This document shows positions 6,493 to 19,420 of a DNA stretch of 32,946 nucleotides, one piece after another. The stretch lies in assembly GCA_021810625.1 (NCBI GenBank), contig JAJZIJ010000029.1, positions 1 to 32,946 of the forward strand, written 5' to 3'. The notes under the pieces are model-generated. The model searched no databases. It saw nothing but the letters and a program-made list of their open reading frames with translations, and was not told where the DNA came from. Source of the DNA: Acidobacteriota bacterium. Lineage in GTDB: Bacteria > Acidobacteriota > Terriglobia > Terriglobales > Acidobacteriaceae. A program made the position numbers and the translations under genes. Position 1 is the first letter of the stretch, and every line of letters starts with the position of its first letter.

Positions 6493-9400
6493 TCATTGCA
6501 CCGTCAGGGTCAGGGTGACGCTCTTCGCAAGGCCGCCCGCGCTGGCCGTGACCGTCAGGGTATAGGTGCCGGGCGGCGTTGCCGAGGAGAGGGGCAAAGG
6601 ATTGGTTGCGGCGTTCGCTCCAAGAAGCCCGCCACCCACGCCACACGCCAGCGTATTGCCCAAAAGCGCCAACAGAAGTCCCAGCCAGATTCCATGCTGC
6701 CAGCGGCGCGGTAACGCACGCCTTCTCTGGCGCAGCCATGCCAGAGGAGCAATGCCCAGCAGCAGTAGCCATCGGGCATTCCAATCCAATCCGGCGCTGC
6801 GCGCCTGGAGGTTCGTCAGCGCGAGACCAGCCTGCGCGGAAGCTCCTGCGCTGGCTGCCACGGTGCTGGTGCCAGTTGACACATTGACAGTAATGACCGC
6901 CGGAGCCGTCAAGGAGGGAGATGCCGGATTGATGCTGCAAGTGGCATCCAGCGGCAGGTTGGTGCAACGCAGGCTGGCCGTGCCTGCCGAACCATTCACG
7001 GGAGTCAGGTCGAGAAGATAGCTGGCGGTAGCCCCGCTGGCTACGCTCGCCGACGTGGAACTACTCGGAGAGAGTGCAAAGTCGATGCCCGTGCCGCTCA
7101 GTGCGACCTGCAAGGTTCCGGCGTTGGCGGTGACGACCGTCAGCAGGCCGCTAGCCGCGCCCACCGCCGTGGGATCAAAGACCACTTGCAGGGCACAACT
7201 GGTTCCCGATGCCAGAGAAGTTGCACAGTTGCTGCTCTGGCTGAAGGGGCCAGTGATAGAGATGGAGAGTACCGTCAACGTACCGCTGCTGCCATTCGCC
7301 AGCACCAGCGATTGCGGCGCGGTTGCAAGGTGGATGCCAGAGATGCCAAAGTTCAACGCGGAGGGAGTGACCGCGACGCTTCCTAAGACTCCTGTTCCTG
7401 TGAGCGGGACGACCTGCGTTCGATTGCTATCGCTGACGAGGATCGTTCCGGTCTGCGGCCCTGTCCCCAGCGGCTCAAAGGTGACGGAGATGATGCAGTT
7501 GGTGCCGGGAGCCAGCGACGTTCCGCAGGTGGTGGTGATGGGGAAATCTGTGCTGCTGGATTGAATGCTCACTCCAGTCAGCAAGCTTGAGACATGGTTG
7601 CTCAGTGTGATGATTTGCGCGACGCTTACGGTTCCCATCGTCTGCGCGGCAAAGCTGAGGGACAAGGGAGAAAGGTTATCACTCGCAGGCGTTTCTGCCG
7701 AGCCGTTCAGCGCTACTACTTGCGTGCGCTTGGCATCGGTCACATCCAGTTGCCCGGTCGCGTTGCCCGCCGTCTGCGGCGTGTACGTGACGGTGATATT
7801 GCAGGTCGAGTGTGCAGCCAGCACGGTGCCGCAAGTGCTCGTCTGCGCGAATCCAGCGCCCAGTATTTGCAGCGTGATCGCGTTCAGCGCCACGTTGCCG
7901 GAGTTGGTGAGTGTGATCGTCTGCGGCGGCGCGGAGAATCCCAGCACCGTTGCCGGAAACGTGAGCGAGGTCGCTGAGAGCGTGTCCGTTGGCGGAGCCA
8001 GTCCGGTTCCGCTGAGCGTAACCGTCTGGGAGCGCAAAATATCGGTGACGGTGATCGCGCCTGTCTCCGGCCCCGTGGCATGGGGAGTGTAGGTTACGGT
8101 CAGGGTGCAGGAGGATTGCGCGTTCAGCGTGTAGCTGCAACCATTCACGACGGTGAAATCCCCGTTGACCTGCACCTGAATCGCCGTCAGCGGCGCACTT
8201 CCGCTGTTGGTTAGAGTCACCGTTTGCGGCGCGCTGGAGGTAAATTCCAAGGTTGGCGCAAAGCTCAACGACAGCGGAGCCAGGGTATCTGTCGCCGAAG
8301 TCGCGCCACTTCCGCTCAGGGAAACGGTCTGCGTGCCCTGCGCCGTCACCACGGTCAGCACACCGCTGGCTGGCCCGGCCTGCGTGGGCGTAAAGATGAT
8401 GGCCAGCGTGCATCCAGACTGCGCGGCCAGCGTGCTGCCGCAGGTATTGGTTTGGATGGCAAAGCTCCCCGTCACGCTCTCTGAGGTCAGCGATACCGAA
8501 GCGCCTCCCGTATTGCTGATGGTCAACTGCTGCGCCGAGGACGTTGTGTTCAGCACCTGCCCGCCAAAGCTGAGCATTGTCGGAGTCAGCGTGATTTGCG
8601 GCGCGGCCACGCCCGTTCCTGTCAGGCTCACCGTCTGCTGGCCGCCGATGACATTGGCGAAGACCGTCAGCACGCCCGTTCTCGTTCCCGTCGCCGTGGG
8701 CGCAAAGATCACCTGCGCCTGGCAGCTTCCACCGGGCGCGACTGTGCCCACGCAGTTGTCCGTCTCGCTAAAGTCGCCACTGGCGCTGACGCTGGAGATG
8801 ACAAGCGCGACCGTCCCGGAGTTGGTCACGGTTACGGTTTGCGGCGCGCTGGCCGTCTGCTGCGCCTGATTGCCGAAGGTCAACGCTGTCGGAGCCAGCG
8901 TCATCGTGGCCAGCGTTGCGCCACTCAGCAGGGGAATCTGCCAGATGCCGCGGCCATAGGTTCCCACGCGCAAATACGCCGCGCTGCCCACGGAGATAGC
9001 CGACAGCGCCACCGCAGGCGAGCGCGGCAATCCGGTGCCCAGCGTATTCCAGCACTGGTTGCCGCTCTGCGCGCACAGGCTGACATTTTCCGTGACAAAC
9101 ACGCCGCCGTCGCTGGCCGCATACACAATGTTGGCGTTGTTCGGATCGACCAGAACCGCGTCCAGCGGCAGGTTGGGCAGGTTTTGCGTGATGTTGTTCC
9201 AGTGCGCGCCGCCATCGGTCGATTGGTAGAGATGCGGCACGTTGAAGCCTTGAATCGCCGCGTAGATGGTCATGCCCGTGGCATCGTGCGGGTCGGCGTA
9301 CAGCGAGGACACGTCAAAAAACTGCGGGTTGAAGACCGATTGATAGGACGTGTCATTCACCACGGGCGAGTAGGCCAGATCGACCCACGGCGTTGTGCCG

Positions 9401-11679
9401 TTGGCGGTGTTGGCCGTCTGCGTGGAGAGCACATGACCGGAGATGTTGCCTCCGCCATCGAGCAGCCCCGCCATGCCCGCGTAGATGACCTGCGCGCCGC
9501 TATTCTGCGCGCTCGATGTTTGGATGTTGCTGCCTCCGGCGGCCAGCGAGCGAATCAGCGCGTTGCCATTGCAACTGGGCTGCGGATGACCATCCAGCAT
9601 GGGGCTGATGGCGTTGGCCGCCGTCCACGAGATGCCGCCGCTGGCTGGCCCGCGCCACACCCGGCAGGTTCCCACCAGCAGATTGGAGGAATCCTGCGGA
9701 TCAAGCTGATACGGCGCGTGCAGCAGCGATTCGTCATAGGAAGTCTGCGCTGCGCCGACGGCAGGCTGGCTGCCGAAATCCGCTGTCGTGCAGCTTGCGC
9801 CTGCCGTACATTGTCCAATCGCAACGCCCGGCCCCAGCGTGGCATACCAATTGGCCGGATTTGTGGGATCAATGGCCGTCAAACCGCCCTCTTGCGGCAA
9901 AAGCTGGCTATAGGCGACATCGCTGGCCGTTGCTGTGGCCGCCGATCCCGCGCCGCCAAAGCCTGCCAGAATCGTGTTGGCATCGCTGGCGCTGCTGGCC
10001 AGCCCGGTCGTCTCCGCCAGCGATCCCAGCCCGTCATTCAGGTTTTGGTAGTGGGCGGCATCGGTACTCGCGCACACGGCCCCGGTCTGGTTCACGCCAT
10101 CGGTCGAGCGCCACAATCCACCATCGTTGCCAAAGTACATCAGCGGCAGGGTTTGTCCGGCAGGCGGCGCAAGAAAAGCCATTGCGTGCTGCGCGGGCGC
10201 GACTTGCGCTGCGGCGCAGGTGGCTGTGTTGGTCGTGTTGCGCCAGGCGCAACCCGCAGCCAGACTGCATCGAAAAATATCCGGGGTTCCGGCAAAGAGC
10301 AGCGTATCTCCACTGTTGGGCAATGCGGCCAGCGCCAGGTTGTAGGTGCCATCTGGAATCGTGCCATTGCCCGTCGTTGAATCGAGCGGCGTGTCGGGAA
10401 TCTGTGTTGCGAATTGCACGACGGGATTGGCGCAGCCGCTGCCTGTGGCGTTGCATACGTCCTGCCACAGCCCCTGATCCAGATCGTTTGCGTCCACGGT
10501 GAGCGCGAACAAATCCCCCGTCGTCGCCTGCGCGGCCAGCACTCCGCGATAGATTGGGCAGGACGGGCTGCCGGGGAGGGTTGGATTCGCCGGGCAGTTT
10601 GTTGTCGTCAATCCCACGCCGGGCTGGTGGGTCATGCGCGTCCAGGTTATGCCGTCAGAGGACTGATAGTAGCCGTGATAGAGAATGGCCGCAAAAAACA
10701 TCTGCCGCACCGGGTTCCAGACCACCGTCGTCGCCGGATTGCCCCCGGTCGGCCCATTCACAATCGAGGTGGGCGATTGAATGATTTCGTTCGCGCCATC
10801 TTCGATGGTTGCCATCAGCCAGGTCTGGCCTGCGTCGGTCGAGTAATACAGGCCCGTCTCGCTCACCTGCTGCGAACCAACATCGTTGATGGTTCCATCC
10901 AGCGAGTGCGTCACGGCGGCCACCACCAGGCTGGGCGAAGTGGTGCTCCACGCAAAGCCAGCAAAGGCCTCGCCAGTAAAGCTGTAGTTGTAAAAGCCCG
11001 TGCCGTTGAATGCGTCGCTGCTCTGCGGAATCAGGCTCCATGTGGTTCCCCCATCGGCAGAACGCAGAATGCCCGCGCCATAGTAGGAATCCAGCGCATC
11101 GTTCGGATCGCCAGTTCCAGCCAGAACCACGCCTGTCCCGCCCGGCTGCACGCTTACCGCTCCAATGCTGATGGAGGTAAGATTCACGCCATTGAAGGCC
11201 GCCGGAGTATCCAGCAGCGGAGTAAATGTTACCGTCGCCGGATCGCTGGCCGCTGCATTGGCGGACTTCCAAACCCCGCCGCCCGTCGTGCCAATGTAGA
11301 CGTGATTGCCAGAGGCATCCGACGGGTCGATGGCCACCGACGTTACGCGCCCGGTAATGTTGCCATACCGCGCTGTGGTGATCTGCAACGGCCCCACAGG
11401 CTGCCAGCTTTGATTCAGCGGTAATAGGTGTGGCCGGGGATGGGCCGCCAGATTGAGCGCCTGCTGCATTCCGCGCAGACGCAACTCCGCGATGGATTGT
11501 CCGGGAACCAGTCGCGCCGCCAGAAAATCGCGCGCGCGTTGTTCAGCGGCAGAGCGCGGCCTGCTGGGAGCCGAGGTCGGATTTGGCGCAGGGACGGAGT
11601 TCTTTGGCGACAAGCCAAACAAGAGCGGCAACGGTAGTGACGCGAGCAGGAGCGTCACGCAACGGAACGGAAGCTGCAT
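6493..11679 (-). CDS. Giant secreted protein: sialidase/BNR-like propeller region plus six choice-of-anchor-D (ASH) repeats
   Basis: About 1728 residues. I start it at 11679, where an AGGTG sits 5 nt before the ATG and a signal peptide begins (MQLPFRCVTLLLASLPLP); an in-frame ATG 30 codons upstream adds only non-conserved sequence. Residues ~60-920 carry repeated propeller-like motifs such as VYIGTTGGGVWKSA, GILRSADGGTTWS, LYYSTDAGQTW and LYQSTDGGAHWNN (Asp-box/BNR style). Residues ~923-1533 are six ~100-residue beta-sandwich repeats, each with a pattern like PQTVTVTNSG, a cysteine pair and VSLTGTG. A bacterial Ig-like segment follows, then two hydrophobic helices (~1634-1650 and ~1659-1678) flanking a very basic loop, then a final beta strand segment (GTYTLTVTASAGG). 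Function is unknown; a surface adhesin or glycan-binding protein is a guess. Confidence 0.88.
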   Translation of the reverse strand: MQLPFRCVTLLLASLPLPLLFGLSPKNSVPAPNPTSAPSRPRSAAEQRARDFLAARLVPGQSIAELRLRGMQQALNLAAHPRPHLLPLNQSWQPVGPLQITTARYGNITGRVTSVAIDPSDASGNHVYIGTTGGGVWKSANAAASDPATVTFTPLLDTPAAFNGVNLTSISIGAVSVQPGGTGVVLAGTGDPNDALDSYYGAGILRSADGGTTWSLIPQSSDAFNGTGFYNYSFTGEAFAGFAWSTTSPSLVVAAVTHSLDGTINDVGSQQVSETGLYYSTDAGQTWLMATIEDGANEIIQSPTSIVNGPTGGNPATTVVWNPVRQMFFAAILYHGYYQSSDGITWTRMTHQPGVGLTTTNCPANPTLPGSPSCPIYRGVLAAQATTGDLFALTVDANDLDQGLWQDVCNATGSGCANPVVQFATQIPDTPLDSTTGNGTIPDGTYNLALAALPNSGDTLLFAGTPDIFRCSLAAGCAWRNTTNTATCAAAQVAPAQHAMAFLAPPAGQTLPLMYFGNDGGLWRSTDGVNQTGAVCASTDAAHYQNLNDGLGSLAETTGLASSASDANTILAGFGGAGSAATATASDVAYSQLLPQEGGLTAIDPTNPANWYATLGPGVAIGQCTAGASCTTADFGSQPAVGAAQTSYDESLLHAPYQLDPQDSSNLLVGTCRVWRGPASGGISWTAANAISPMLDGHPQPSCNGNALIRSLAAGGSNIQTSSAQNSGAQVIYAGMAGLLDGGGNISGHVLSTQTANTANGTTPWVDLAYSPVVNDTSYQSVFNPQFFDVSSLYADPHDATGMTIYAAIQGFNVPHLYQSTDGGAHWNNITQNLPNLPLDAVLVDPNNANIVYAASDGGVFVTENVSLCAQSGNQCWNTLGTGLPRSPAVALSAISVGSAAYLRVGTYGRGIWQIPLLSGATLATMTLAPTALTFGNQAQQTASAPQTVTVTNSGTVALVISSVSASGDFSETDNCVGTVAPGGSCQAQVIFAPTATGTRTGVLTVFANVIGGQQTVSLTGTGVAAPQITLTPTMLSFGGQVLNTTSSAQQLTISNTGGASVSLTSESVTGSFAIQTNTCGSTLAAQSGCTLAIIFTPTQAGPASGVLTVVTAQGTQTVSLSGSGATSATDTLAPLSLSFAPTLEFTSSAPQTVTLTNSGSAPLTAIQVQVNGDFTVVNGCSYTLNAQSSCTLTVTYTPHATGPETGAITVTDILRSQTVTLSGTGLAPPTDTLSATSLTFPATVLGFSAPPQTITLTNSGNVALNAITLQILGAGFAQTSTCGTVLAAHSTCNITVTYTPQTAGNATGQLDVTDAKRTQVVALNGSAETPASDNLSPLSLSFAAQTMGTVSVAQIITLSNHVSSLLTGVSIQSSSTDFPITTTCGTSLAPGTNCIISVTFEPLGTGPQTGTILVSDSNRTQVVPLTGTGVLGSVAVTPSALNFGISGIHLATAPQSLVLANGSSGTLTVLSISITGPFSQSSNCATSLASGTSCALQVVFDPTAVGAASGLLTVVTANAGTLQVALSGTGIDFALSPSSSTSASVASGATASYLLDLTPVNGSAGTASLRCTNLPLDATCSINPASPSLTAPAVITVNVSTGTSTVAASAGASAQAGLALTNLQARSAGLDWNARWLLLLGIAPLAWLRQRRRALPRRWQHGIWLGLLLALLGNTLACGVGGGLLGANAATNPLPLSSATPPGTYTLTVTASAGGLAKSVTLTLTVQ
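7080..8910 (-). repeat. Six tandem ~300-bp coding repeats (ASH/choice-of-anchor-D domains)
   Basis: The protein encoded here contains six consecutive, diverged units of about 100 residues. Each begins with a variant of LxPxxLxFG and contains a TxxNSG-like turn and two cysteines (for example TDNCVGTVAPGGSC). Each ends with a variant of QTVSLSGTG. Boundaries are approximate, because the copies are diverged at DNA level and recognisable mainly as protein. Confidence 0.8.
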
Positions 11680-11922
11680 TCCAACACCTGAGCGGAGAAC
11701 GAGGGAGCGTTGGGCTACATCAAAAAAATTATTGCAGCCAGTGTGCAGTACGCTGGCCTGCCGCGTCAATCAAATTCTGCTGGCGGTCGCTGGCGCTGCT
11801 TTTCATGCTTCCGCTTCTGTGCGTGGAGTGGGACATCCCGCCTGCGCCACAAATGGATTCTCGAAGGAATGGTATCCTTGCAGGAACTCAGACCCGCGCC
11901 CATAAGGGATGAAGGTTTCGGC

Positions 11923-13449
11923 ATGAACAAGCTTTTCTACGGCGACAATCTGGACATTCTGCGACGCAGAGGCAAGGGCAGTATCAAGGATGAATCCGTA
12001 GACCTTTGCTACATTGATCCGCCCTTTAACTCCAAGCGGAACTATAACCAGATTTACAACAACGTTGGCACGGAAGACCGCGCCCAGGCCCAGGCATTTC
12101 TGGATACGTGGACTTGGGATGATCGCGCCAATGATGGCTACAGCGAGATTCTTGCCAATGCCGAAGGACGCTTTCAGCCCCAATTGGCGGAACTTATCAA
12201 AGGGCTGCACGCGGTTCTCGGAAAAGGCAGCCTTCTGGCCTATCTCATCAGCATGGCGCTGCGCATTACGGAGATTCACCGCATATTGAAGCCAACAGGC
12301 AGTTTTTATCTGCATTGCGATCCAACATCCAGCCACTATCTCAAGCTGGTGCTGGATGCCGTGTTTTGCAGTCAGGGAGGGGATTTCATCAATGAAATTG
12401 CCTGGTGTTATAGTCATGGCGGGAAAAGCAAGCACCATTTTGGCCGCAAGCATGACACTATATTTTTTTACAGTAAGTCGGAAGATTTCACATTCAATTC
12501 AGACGGCATAAAAATAGAAATGAGGAGTGGCAAGCACAGTTTCGGCGGACGTTTGGAAACGGATTCAGACGGAAGAAAATACAGGCTTGTCTACGGCACG
12601 AAAAACAGCGAAGGCAAAACTAAATACTACAAATATTATTTAGATGAAGGAAAAATTCCAGAAGATTGGTGGACAGACATCAATTCCATTCAGGCGACCT
12701 CTGCGGAGCGACTGGGCTATCCAACACAAAAGCCGGAGGCGCTCCTGGAGCGAATTATCAGAGCGTCCAGTAACGAAGGCGATGTTATTCTCGATGCCTA
12801 TTGCGGCTGCGGAACGACTGTCGCGGTGGCGCAGCGCCTCAAACGAAAGTGGATTGGGATCGACATCACCTACCAATCCATATCTTTGGTGCTGCGACGG
12901 CTGGAAAAGACCTTTGGCGCGGACATTCTGCATCAGATTCAGAGGGACGGTATCCCGCGCGATATGGCCTCAGCCATAGCCCTGGCTCATAAGAAAGATG
13001 ACCGTCTACGCAAGGAATTTGAAAAGTGGGCTGTACTTACCTATACGAATAACCGGGCCGTCATCAACGAGAAAAAAGGCGCGGATGCTGGTATTGATGC
13101 CGTGGCCTACTTTCTAACAGGAAAAAATGATAACGCGAAGATCATTTTTCAAGTGAAATCAGGCGCAGTCAAGCGTGGAGACATCGCCACGCTTCGCGGT
13201 GACATGGCGCGGGAGCAGGCGACACTTGCAATCCTAATAAGTCTGGAGGAACCCACGCGCCCCATGTTGAATGAGGCGAAGGCCGCCGGTCAATACATCC
13301 ATGCAACAATGGGCCGCAATTACGACAAAATCAGCATTGTCACCATCCGAGAGATTCTCGAAGGCAAGCGCCTGGAAATCCCCATGAGCGTTGAGGTTGT
13401 AAAAGCTGCGCAGACCGCCCTCAACGAGGAGCAGATGGATTTGCTGTAG
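11923..13449 (+). CDS. Beta-class N4/N6 DNA methyltransferase fused to a Mrr-like nuclease domain
   Basis: About 508 residues. Predicted to methylate adenine N6 or cytosine N4 in a specific DNA sequence using S-adenosylmethionine. Catalytic motif IV, DPPF, lies at residues 32-35; the AdoMet-binding motif DAYCGCGTT lies at 291-299, followed by WIGIDI. Motif IV before motif I defines the beta class. The region between them (about 150-260), expected to carry target recognition, is Lys/Phe/Tyr-rich and its DNA is clearly AT-richer than the surroundings. The C-terminus has GADAGID (386-392) and FQVKSG (Q410, K412), a D-QxK arrangement like Mrr/PD-(D/E)XK nucleases, then ISLEEPTRPM. A GAAGG sits 7 nt before the chosen ATG. 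There is no partner restriction gene on either side. Confidence 0.9.
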   Translation: MNKLFYGDNLDILRRRGKGSIKDESVDLCYIDPPFNSKRNYNQIYNNVGTEDRAQAQAFLDTWTWDDRANDGYSEILANAEGRFQPQLAELIKGLHAVLGKGSLLAYLISMALRITEIHRILKPTGSFYLHCDPTSSHYLKLVLDAVFCSQGGDFINEIAWCYSHGGKSKHHFGRKHDTIFFYSKSEDFTFNSDGIKIEMRSGKHSFGGRLETDSDGRKYRLVYGTKNSEGKTKYYKYYLDEGKIPEDWWTDINSIQATSAERLGYPTQKPEALLERIIRASSNEGDVILDAYCGCGTTVAVAQRLKRKWIGIDITYQSISLVLRRLEKTFGADILHQIQRDGIPRDMASAIALAHKKDDRLRKEFEKWAVLTYTNNRAVINEKKGADAGIDAVAYFLTGKNDNAKIIFQVKSGAVKRGDIATLRGDMAREQATLAILISLEEPTRPMLNEAKAAGQYIHATMGRNYDKISIVTIREILEGKRLEIPMSVEVVKAAQTALNEEQMDLL

Positions 13450-17216: not shown

Positions 17217-18167
17217 CTACTCCGCAACTGGCTGGGCGCTGCGTTGCCAAGCGGTGACGATCATATCGCGCAGCATGGTCGCGCCAGCGGCCAGACGCTC
17301 GGCGGTAAAGGTGCGCGATTGCGCGCTGCCCGCGCCGCGAAAGCCCCCTTGCTGATCGAGTTGATAGACTTCATCCACCTGCTGATGCGTGGCGCGCAGA
17401 TAGGTCACAAAGGCTGCAAAGGGCTGGCCGACAAGCGGGCGCGGAGTCTGCGGCACCAGCGGCTTTACATCGCTCTCGCGGAGGTTGGCCTGTACAAACG
17501 CCGTCTCAAAGCGGGCATGAATGCCGGGGGCGCGGCTATAGCCATGCGGATTGTCTGCCTCTATCCATCCGTTGTAGTTGAGCGTGGTATGCAAGGGCTG
17601 GGAGCCATCGCCGACGTAATGGCCCAGCCAGCCAATGTCATACAGAATGGCCTGCTCCACGCCATAGGTGTTCCGATGCGCCGCGTGGCGCGCGCGATAG
17701 CCGCGCATATCAGCTTGCAGCCTCTCGTAGACCTCATCTGCCTGCCAGGGAAGCAGGCCAACGTGCTGCGGCAGGAGTATCGCAGCAATCTGGGGTTGCC
17801 GTTTCTGCGCGGCAAAGGACGCAGCATAGGCATCGCGCAGAAAATCAAAACGATCCGGCGGCAGGCCATGCGGCTCAATGGCATCGGCCCATTCCAGATC
17901 AATAAAATGCTCCGGGGCCTGCGCCGCGCTTAACTCCGGCTCTGCCGGGGAGCGCCAACGATCCGGCTCCGGGCCAAGATACTCCACCTCTCGCAGCGCC
18001 TGCGGCGTGCGCAGAAATGCAGGCAGATCAGCAGGCAGCTTCTCCATTGCGACGCGGTTAATGAGCTTGTGGCCCTCCTTACCCCAGCCAAAACACGCGG
18101 GCGCGGCCAGCAGCGACAGCAGAGGGGCAAGAGCGAAGAGACAAGGAAAGATCGGCGGACGACGCAT
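17217..18167 (-). CDS. Secreted S1/P1-type zinc nuclease
   Basis: About 316 residues, predicted to cleave single-stranded nucleic acid outside the cytoplasm using three zinc ions. A signal peptide (IFPCLFALAPLLSLLAAPAC) ends just before GWGKEGH. In S1/P1 enzymes the mature N-terminal tryptophan and a histidine five residues later bind zinc; here W28 and H33 have exactly that spacing, which predicts cleavage after G27. The central LGHYVGDGSQPLHT is the family's His-Asp-His core, and GIHARFETAF fits the downstream His motif. The start is uncertain: no good ribosome-binding site precedes 18167, and an ATG 9 codons upstream (18194) is possible. It is divergent from the deoxyhypusine-synthase-like gene. 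Confidence 0.85.
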   Translation of the reverse strand: MRRPPIFPCLFALAPLLSLLAAPACFGWGKEGHKLINRVAMEKLPADLPAFLRTPQALREVEYLGPEPDRWRSPAEPELSAAQAPEHFIDLEWADAIEPHGLPPDRFDFLRDAYAASFAAQKRQPQIAAILLPQHVGLLPWQADEVYERLQADMRGYRARHAAHRNTYGVEQAILYDIGWLGHYVGDGSQPLHTTLNYNGWIEADNPHGYSRAPGIHARFETAFVQANLRESDVKPLVPQTPRPLVGQPFAAFVTYLRATHQQVDEVYQLDQQGGFRGAGSAQSRTFTAERLAAGATMLRDMIVTAWQRSAQPVAE

Positions 18168-18333
18168 CTGCGACAAGTATAGGAGCGCGCGCATCTTGCT
18201 GCGAATGCGCTGAAAAAATACAGGGCAAATCGTGCCATATCGAGAACGGGACATCTTCTCTTCCCACAATGGAGCGCCTGCATTCTTGCCACAGCAGGGG
18301 TTGGCAATCCCAAGAAAATCCCCGGAAAATGCT

Positions 18334-18350
18334 GGATATTTTTGATATCC
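18334..18350 (+). repeat. Perfect 6-bp hairpin directly before a ribosome-binding site
   Basis: GGATAT and ATATCC arms around a TTTTG loop lie immediately upstream of GAGGTG (18352-18357), the Shine-Dalgarno of the deoxyhypusine-synthase-like gene. The position would allow it to affect translation or mRNA stability, but it is short and could be chance. Confidence 0.4.
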
Positions 18351-18358
18351 TGAGGTGT

Positions 18359-19420
18359 ATGCCAACCAAGAAGAAAATTCTCAACCATCCGATTCAACAC
18401 ATCGACATCAAACAGCACGACGTAACCGTGCTGGTCGATGCCATGCAGCACATGGCCTACAGTTCGCGCGATCTGGCCCGCGCTGCCGACATCTACACGC
18501 GCATGTTGCGCGATCAGGAGTGCGGCGTGATTCTCTGCCTGGCCGGCTCGCTGATTAGCGCCGGGTTGAAGCAGATTTTTGTCGATCTATTGCGCAACAA
18601 CATGGTGGATGCCATCGTTTCCACTGGCGCCAACATTGTCGATCAGGACTTCTTTGAGGCGCTCGGCTTCCAGCATTACATGGCCGACGAAGCCTACAAA
18701 TCCGGCACGCTGGACGGCGAATTGCGCGAGTTGATGATCGACCGCATCTACGACACGCTGATCGACGAAGAAGAGTTGCGCATTTGCGATGAGACCACGG
18801 AAAAAATCGCCAACGCGCTGCCGCCGCGTCCCCACAGCTCGCGTGAATTTATCCGCGCAATGGGCGCGTATCTGGAGCAGGAAGGGAAGACTCCGGCCAA
18901 GGGCGGCGTGGATTCCATCGTACTGGCGGCCTATCAGAAGGACATTCCGATCTTCTGTCCGGCGTTTAGCGATTGCTCCGCAGGCTTTGGCCTGGTGGCG
19001 CATCAACATGCGCGGCAGGATAAGCCAAAAGTCTCCATCGACTCCGTAAAAGATTTTTACGAGTTGACGCAACTCAAAATCGCCAACCCAACCACGGGCC
19101 TGTTGATGATCGGCGGCGGCGTGCCCAAGAACTTTGCGCAGGATATTGTCGTGGCCGCAGACATTCTGGGCAACGAAGCGCCGATGCACAAATACGCCAT
19201 CCAGATCACTGTGGCCGATGTGCGCGACGGAGCGTTGTCGTCCAGCACGCTGAAGGAAGCCAGTTCGTGGGGCAAGGTGGACACGACCTTTGAGCAGATG
19301 GTCTACAGCGAAGCCACGCTGGCGCTGCCGTTGATTGCCGGCTATGCCTACCACAAGCGGGCGCACGCGGAGCGCAAAGCACGCCGCTGGGCGCGGCTGC
19401 TGGAGTCGGTGACAGTCTAA
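18359..19420 (+). CDS. Deoxyhypusine-synthase-family enzyme (probable polyamine biosynthesis)
   Basis: About 353 residues, NAD-dependent fold of the deoxyhypusine synthase family. The eukaryotic/archaeal enzyme transfers the aminobutyl part of spermidine to eIF5A; bacteria lack eIF5A, and bacterial homologues are thought to make polyamines such as homospermidine. Diagnostic segments are CLAGSLISAGL, DAIVSTGANIVDQD, TGLLMIGGGVPKNF and EASSWGKVDTTF. The lysine of SWGK (K306) matches the catalytic lysine of the human enzyme, so activity is likely. I place the start at 18359, preceded by GAGGTG with an unusually short gap; an ATG at 18329 is an alternative. It touches the next gene, whose ATG follows its TAA with no gap. 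Which acceptor it uses is inference. Confidence 0.88.
   Translation: MPTKKKILNHPIQHIDIKQHDVTVLVDAMQHMAYSSRDLARAADIYTRMLRDQECGVILCLAGSLISAGLKQIFVDLLRNNMVDAIVSTGANIVDQDFFEALGFQHYMADEAYKSGTLDGELRELMIDRIYDTLIDEEELRICDETTEKIANALPPRPHSSREFIRAMGAYLEQEGKTPAKGGVDSIVLAAYQKDIPIFCPAFSDCSAGFGLVAHQHARQDKPKVSIDSVKDFYELTQLKIANPTTGLLMIGGGVPKNFAQDIVVAADILGNEAPMHKYAIQITVADVRDGALSSSTLKEASSWGKVDTTFEQMVYSEATLALPLIAGYAYHKRAHAERKARRWARLLESVTV

Follow-up and report, generated by a model that had tools for sequence, protein, structure and literature searches.

A beta-class DNA methyltransferase with a C-terminal Mrr-type nuclease domain and an exchanged recognition region: a candidate single-gene restriction-modification enzyme

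The window analysed here, a stretch of 32,946 nucleotides (contig JAJZIJ010000029.1, positions 1 to 32,946) from an Acidobacteriota assembly of 2.45 Mb in 74 contigs whose nearest relative is an Acidobacteriaceae MAG at 83%, contains a DNA methyltransferase gene with a nuclease-like carboxy-terminus. This raised the question of what a methyltransferase that carries its own nuclease-like domain might do. An earlier note on this DNA had offered three answers: a self-contained restriction-modification enzyme, a methyl-dependent nuclease or a regulatory fold. The reading frame and strand, the motifs DPPF (residues 32-35) and DAYCGCGTT (291-299), D392 and Q410-V411-K412 that it had picked out were all recovered, and the gene can be laid out as follows.

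11923..13449, + strand: whole gene, 508 aa, a beta-class DNA amino-methyltransferase with a C-terminal Mrr-type nuclease domain (ORF, Pfam, alignment)
11923..12384, + strand: N-terminal part of the methyltransferase core, aa 1-154 (Pfam N6_N4_Mtase; 94.2% identity with the same-genus orthologue)
12016-12027, + strand: motif IV, DPPF, aa 32-35, within the N-terminal core part
12385..12708, + strand: target-recognition region, the exchanged cassette, aa 155-262 (47.5% identity with the orthologue, highest family entropy)
12709..12912, + strand: C-terminal part of the methyltransferase core, aa 263-330, with GYPTQKP (motifs, alignment)
12793-12819, + strand: AdoMet motif I, DAYCGCGTT, aa 291-299, within the C-terminal core part
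12940..13446, + strand: Mrr-type PD-(D/Q)xK nuclease domain, aa 340-508 (Mrr_cat, predicted fold, structural matches)
13084..13098, + strand: first acidic active-site element, D388-x-G390-x-D392 (conservation in 100 aligned proteins)
13150..13158, + strand: second active-site element, Q410-V411-K412 (conservation in 100 aligned proteins)

The Pfam scan of the window protein placed N6_N4_Mtase (PF01555) at residues 26-319 with an E-value of 7.4e-43, Mrr_cat at residues 365-455 with 29.3 bits against a curated cut-off of 21, and NA-iREase1 at residues 364-477 with 28.8 bits against a cut-off of 27. Motif IV precedes the variable region and motif I lies toward the C-terminus, which is the order of the beta class, with the recognition region in between; together with the strong N6_N4_Mtase match this bears out the class assigned in the earlier note. 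The folds of M.MboIIA, RsrI and CcrM are among the structural matches of the methyltransferase part, and in a search with the full-length model beta-class methyltransferases match first, with FokI at rank 47. None of the NCBIfam models scored above its cut-off on the window protein. Among the best 25 of 75 PADLOC families the hits fall only on the methyltransferase part, with their best stretches within residues 2-336 and the labels Type II, Type III or orphan methyltransferase; the C-terminal part alone has a sole PADLOC match, the candidate-defence model PDC-S02. The open frame extends upstream to 11710, and the ATG at 11923 is the likely start codon, because the conserved Y6-G-D-N-L of the relatives begins there.

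An AlphaFold model of residues 340-508, built from 54 sequences (pLDDT 85.8), predicts a helix at 360-374, a two-residue bridge at 380-381, strands at 393-398 and 404-412, a helix at 418-430, a strand at 435-440 and a helix at 446-454, in protein numbering. The succession of helix, bridge, strand, strand, helix and strand in this predicted model corresponds to a PD-(D/E)XK core, in which the first core strand is a mere two-residue bridge. The top structural matches found with VIA-align were AspBHI and AF1548, both at Z 10.0, followed by MspJI (9.8), the small subunit of R.BspD6I (9.7), EndoMS (8.4) and FokI (8.3); RNA-polymerase subunit E (RPB5), which is no nuclease, also appears among the matches at 8.1. 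A Foldseek search with the nuclease domain alone returned nothing at E <= 0.001, and a profile of the C-terminal domain gave only weak matches to PDB sequences (E >= 0.045), all to unrelated proteins. The structure prediction called for in the earlier note, run here on residues 340-508, therefore yields a nuclease core with nuclease domains as its best matches, and this, with a Mrr_cat score above the cut-off, agrees with the Mrr/PD-(D/E)XK likeness that the note had read from the letters. Within the hairpin 393-398/404-412, D392 and Q410 stand opposite each other by register (392+410 = 398+404), and judged from this register and the secondary structure alone D392, Q410 and K412 should cluster.

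The residues of the putative active site were then compared across the family. We used two alignments of sequences hand-chosen from the loci, A1 with 48 and A2 with 54 sequences, and a set of 100 proteins, made up of the window protein and 99 others from open reading frames that match from aa 60 or earlier to aa 480 or later, with identical ones dropped. Mrr_cat was found in 54 of the 54 C-terminal domains of A2 (E <= 0.01) and NA-iREase1 in 53 of 54. K412 and V411 are identical in all 100 aligned proteins, as are F366 and W369, while D392 and G390 are each kept in 99 and D388 in 97. Position 410 is Q in 82 proteins, S in 17 and E in one; residues 365 and 367 are E in 89 and 91 of the 100, respectively, and otherwise Q. 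The Mrr_cat match exceeds chance, because every domain of A2 matches and K412, V411 and D392 are invariant or nearly so. NA-iREase1 is by its name a family of inactive enzymes, for which loss of the active site would be expected, but D392 and K412 are present here and near-invariant. Such conservation argues against a merely regulatory fold, the option of the earlier note that is now disfavoured. Against the same-genus orthologue the nuclease domain has a dN/dS of 0.046, with 0.035 and 0.031 for the two core parts (dS 0.7-1.1), which points to purifying selection on the nuclease comparable to that on the core.

The same residues recur in a sample of the phylum: of the distinct C-termini extending to aa 430, all 17 keep D388, D392, V411 and K412, and one of them (L227) is a gene already present in the first set as L018. 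Outside this count stand L206, L207, L217, the degenerate copies L179, L183 and L184, and the second ORF of L206 and of L220. The match of L207 ends at aa 396, yet an intact D...QVK motif is present, and in L206 the frame departs from the family after a D...QIK motif. The C-terminal region of L217 is a different one, the second ORFs of L206 and L220 match only up to aa 329, and in the three degenerate copies parts of both the methyltransferase and the nuclease are without a match.

The comparison with the closest orthologue revealed a second property of the gene. A locus of the same genus (L037) is syntenic with the window, at 85-91% nucleotide identity over the stretches aligned by blastn, and nothing aligned at 12400-12705 or at 11750-11861, the latter outside the gene. 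The two proteins are 94.2% identical over aa 1-154, 94.1% over aa 263-330 and 91.7% over aa 340-508, but only 47.5% over aa 155-262, the region of highest entropy across the family alignment. The recognition region has thus been swapped in place between the two loci. The GC content of the gene (0.503) is below that of the window (0.582), and the recognition region (0.414) lies below the N-terminal core (0.522).

The same behaviour is seen in the family at large. Over the 4950 pairs of the 100 proteins, identity of the core correlates with that of the nuclease at r = 0.90, in contrast to r = 0.16 for core against recognition region and r = 0.15 for nuclease against recognition region; the pairs are mutually dependent and the sample was picked by similarity, so these identities describe a pattern and not a probability. 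In the 2304 pairs whose cores are at least 75% identical the median identity of the recognition region is 0.28, and 2115 of them fall below 0.45. Thiospirillum jenense carries four clustered copies (L055:7998-14999), three head to tail and the fourth after a small nucleotidyltransferase-like ORF, with cores 94-98%, nucleases 93-99% and recognition regions 18-37% identical. A 1747-aa DUF4011/AAA helicase that carries a MTES_1575 nuclease domain precedes the first of these copies by 17 bases, and a fifth copy lies on a separate contig (L112). Two further loci (L064 and L074) hold two copies apiece. The reverse case also occurs, as L010 and L011 share a recognition region at 83% identity with cores at 47% and nucleases at 36%. 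The core and nuclease therefore vary as one linked unit, and what is exchanged is the recognition region that separates the two halves of the core.

As a control we took a beta-class methyltransferase without a nuclease (L033 and its relatives), searched at E <= 1e-40 in 247 genomes of the phylum, which gave 19 proteins. Here core and recognition region correlate at r = 0.89 over 171 pairs, and the lowest identity of the recognition region is 0.56, at a mean core identity of 0.69 (0.72 in the fusion family). This family shows no exchange of the recognition region among its 19 proteins, although it is a narrow control, with 13 of the 19 from one genus. At the same limit the window protein has matches in 17 of the 247, spread over 14 of 141 genera, and the control in 19 genomes of 5 genera; in at least one of the 17 (G379, with L217) the nuclease is absent.

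We next considered whether the enzyme has a partner. In the window the gene stands alone, as the earlier note had remarked, and of 14 other ORFs scanned with Pfam none has a restriction domain. Its upstream neighbour on the minus strand (6493-11769) is a protein of 1758 aa with Ig repeats of the ASH/HYDIN type, which has no bearing on the enzyme; downstream come a TPR protein and an HD-domain protein. Further along, the window encodes a bacterial member of the deoxyhypusine synthase family (18269-19420, + strand; PF01916, 307 bits) and, at 17217-18365 on the minus strand, an S1/P1 nuclease match under its curated cut-off (23.1 against 29.5 bits). The TPR protein, used as a query, had matches in 120 of 120 genomes searched in the family, TPR repeats being widely matched, and in the 30 best loci the HD gene adjoins it in 24. 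A methyltransferase upstream of the TPR gene was found in only two of these 30, the window genome and its congener, with about 1.4-1.6 kb upstream visible; the enzyme gene therefore looks like a single-gene insertion in an ancestor of the genus. The same genome has a second member of the family, 40% identical, whose neighbours are an epimerase/dehydratase and a holin-like gene.

Beyond the genus, we clustered the ORFs within 4 kb of the gene at 80 loci (L037-L116; at L037 the ORF caller missed the enzyme frame), 630 mechanical calls of which 84 are the enzyme itself. No neighbour family occurred at more than 15 of the 80 loci. The commonest is a divergently oriented STAND/NB-ARC-like NTPase, at 15 loci in 13 genomes, all cyanobacterial, often about 200 bases from the enzyme gene (for example L053:6439-7800); it is absent beside the window gene. 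We considered the NTPase as the mark of one shared chromosomal site, a view that gains no support from the mostly different surroundings, most pairs of these loci having no other neighbour family in common, or from the pair occurring twice in both Prochloron (L050, L079) and Anabaena FACHB-1237 (L061, L099). It appears instead to be a travelling companion of the enzyme in cyanobacteria, perhaps a regulator or accessory, and the absence of a partner is for this reason not general. Of the pairs of these loci with core identity above 0.85, only L080/L082 (0.98) and L099/L101 (0.95) have a recognition region in common, all others being at 0.53 or below.

How far does the arrangement extend? Relatives are encoded by 488 stretches of GTDB genome contigs, which confirms the remark in the earlier note that such domains are widespread, and the best 80 of these come from Acidobacteria, Cyanobacteria, Chloroflexi, Proteobacteria and others, with one contig binned as Woesearchaeota. 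Among phage records 28 span 80% or more of the query, and copies from seven were examined: Marinitoga MPV1, four Streptomyces Likavirus and the Mycobacterium phages Dori and Amgine (L140-L146). All seven keep the active-site D and K. The four Likavirus regions contain a serine integrase, those of Dori and Amgine an integrase and that of MPV1 a CI-like repressor, so that in these phages of temperate type the full fusion has an integrase or repressor gene close by. IMG/VR yielded 23 loci, and D392 and K412 are kept in 15 of 15 viral-contig ORFs where the nuclease stretch aligns, a count that includes two alike pairs (L117/L118, L123/L124). One viral frame (L129:1-1047), whose start coincides with the contig end, aligns over aa 2-192 and aa 467-508 but lacks the nuclease stretch. 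Among plasmids, seven records reach a query coverage of 80% or more. Full-length relatives in the listed phage and plasmid records are named DNA methylase, DNA methyltransferase or site-specific DNA-methyltransferase. Relatives at L021, L022, L024 and L180-L182 form a sister group whose overall identity is about 30-33%; it shares the nuclease motif, and among L180-L182 visual inspection again shows differing recognition regions. Sister groups including L207 combine remoter methyltransferases with the same C-terminal nuclease motif, and the wider family thus exceeds the one measured here.

Taken together, we consider it probable that the window gene by itself encodes a complete restriction-modification enzyme that would act in the manner of Type IIC/IIG, the first of the readings offered in the earlier note, which gains support from a recognition region that is exchanged while the nuclease stays constant. 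The core and the region of aa ~155-262 between its halves would recognise one DNA sequence and methylate it at host sites, as m6A or m4C, and the C-terminal Mrr-type domain would use the same recognition to cut DNA in which the site is unmethylated, giving a role in defence. Cleavage would probably require a dimer or a transient assembly, because there is one nuclease site per chain. With one recognition region serving both activities, specificity could be swapped in one step without cell death, which would explain the cassette swaps and the clustered copies. A combined enzyme is favoured because the specificity region often changes while the nuclease residues and the core stay linked. For a methyltransferase whose cognate nuclease is a separate protein, changing specificity alone would be harmful, and a regulatory orphan that did so would no longer serve its purpose. 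Searches of the open-access literature turned up neither biochemical nor methylome evidence on members of the family.

The exchange would also be tolerable in an orphan methyltransferase without a regulatory duty, and an orphan, regulatory or phage-protective, whose nuclease-like domain merely binds DNA or mediates dimerisation is the alternative that deserves most attention, though we regard it as unlikely. The inactive family NA-iREase1 scores above its cut-off in the window protein, matching about as well as Mrr_cat, which counts against a nuclease, and temperate phages are described as carrying modifying enzymes (PMC12707154, in part). A structural domain, however, needs neither K412 nor D392, present in 100 and 99 of the 100 proteins and also in the phage copies, and a regulatory orphan should retain its specificity, whereas the region is exchanged here, unlike in the nuclease-less control family. 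Alternatively the Mrr domain might cut a foreign methylation pattern, with the fused methyltransferase marking self. The modification-dependent enzymes AspBHI and MspJI are among the closest solved folds, and Mrr itself is classed as a Type IV enzyme in the relevant part of PMC3874165. Pfam reveals no separate modification-reading domain in the protein, and its most variable part sits inside the methyltransferase, where methylation specificity would be set, so that we hold this arrangement to be improbable.

It seems comparably improbable that the protein is a modification subunit needing a restriction partner, translocase or NTPase encoded elsewhere, in the manner of Type III Mod/Res. Type III Mod structures (7dsu, 4zcf) are among the matches of the methyltransferase part, Mod proteins also exchange their recognition regions, and the divergent STAND NTPase at the 15 cyanobacterial loci could be taken as such a partner. 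Against this, neighbour families stay within 15 of the 80 loci, the gene has the look of a single-gene insertion in its genus, and the seven phage regions have no annotated helicase or second nuclease, several of their neighbours being hypothetical. Restriction-modification units can also act as addiction modules, and a device in which the nuclease cuts host DNA once methylation fails would fit that known behaviour; it would, however, be a consequence of the self-contained restriction-modification enzyme and not a separate mechanism, and as an explanation in its own right we think it very unlikely.

Returning to the self-contained enzyme, it is an even call whether the family as a whole forms a widespread class of single-gene restriction-modification enzymes, compact (about 490-590 aa) and so far uncharacterised, in which a beta-class core and a Mrr nuclease are inherited as one chassis around an interchangeable cassette between the core halves, in bacteria, a Woesearchaeota-binned contig and temperate phages, with clustered copies giving several specificities in some genomes. 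If so, many supposed orphan methyltransferases would be complete restriction systems, some of them on temperate phages, and natural cassette exchange would offer a way to alter cutting and marking jointly in a small protein. The four Thiospirillum copies would be a direct testbed for linking recognition sequence to protein. New here are the near-invariant nuclease residues, the linkage of core and nuclease around an exchanged recognition region, and the lack of a widely recurring partner among the loci compared.

How does this protein compare with known systems? Mrr, MspJI and AspBHI are modification-dependent enzymes without a methyltransferase, and their nuclease domains share the predicted fold and the profile of the window C-terminal domain; the active-site residues of MspJI are D...QxK. 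A beta-class methyltransferase with a central recognition region is shared with Type III Mod, as judged from the structural matches, but Mod needs a Res subunit, whereas the window enzyme has a built-in nuclease domain. No adjacent res gene was found among 14 other window ORFs scanned, and no neighbour family exceeded 15 of 80 loci, where single neighbours were partly scanned. No paper that we found in the open-access literature treats the combination of beta-class methyltransferase and C-terminal Mrr domain as an enzyme, although such proteins may be catalogued in REBASE, and the term 'beta-class' is absent from the main text of PMC4081073. The Type ISP enzyme LlaGI, as described in part of PMC3874165, likewise has a Mrr-like PD-QXK nuclease in a single chain, there at the N-terminus and with a translocase and a gamma-class methyltransferase; the Pfam scan found no ATPase domain in the window protein. 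BtgZI, compared by its description in PMC4081073 only and standing there as an exception to the usual Type IIC layout, has an N-terminal methyltransferase and a C-terminal PD-D/EXK variant with Q for E, as here, but its methyltransferase is alpha-class where ours is beta-class.

The closest parallel is with the Type IIC/IIG enzymes such as MmeI, Eco57I, BpuSI and BcgI, which according to the part of PMC4081073 that treats them combine both activities in one chain with one specificity part, so that in Type IIG the specificity of both shifts at once. The window ORF likewise has predicted endonuclease and methyltransferase domains in one protein. Most Type IIC enzymes are described there as having an N-terminal PD-D/EXK domain, a gamma-class methyltransferase and a specificity part that is C-terminal or a separate subunit, whereas in the window enzyme the recognition region is internal and the nuclease C-terminal. 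Because its methyltransferase is beta-class and not gamma-class, as that description has it for Type IIG, the enzyme is best said to work like a Type IIG enzyme and not to be one.
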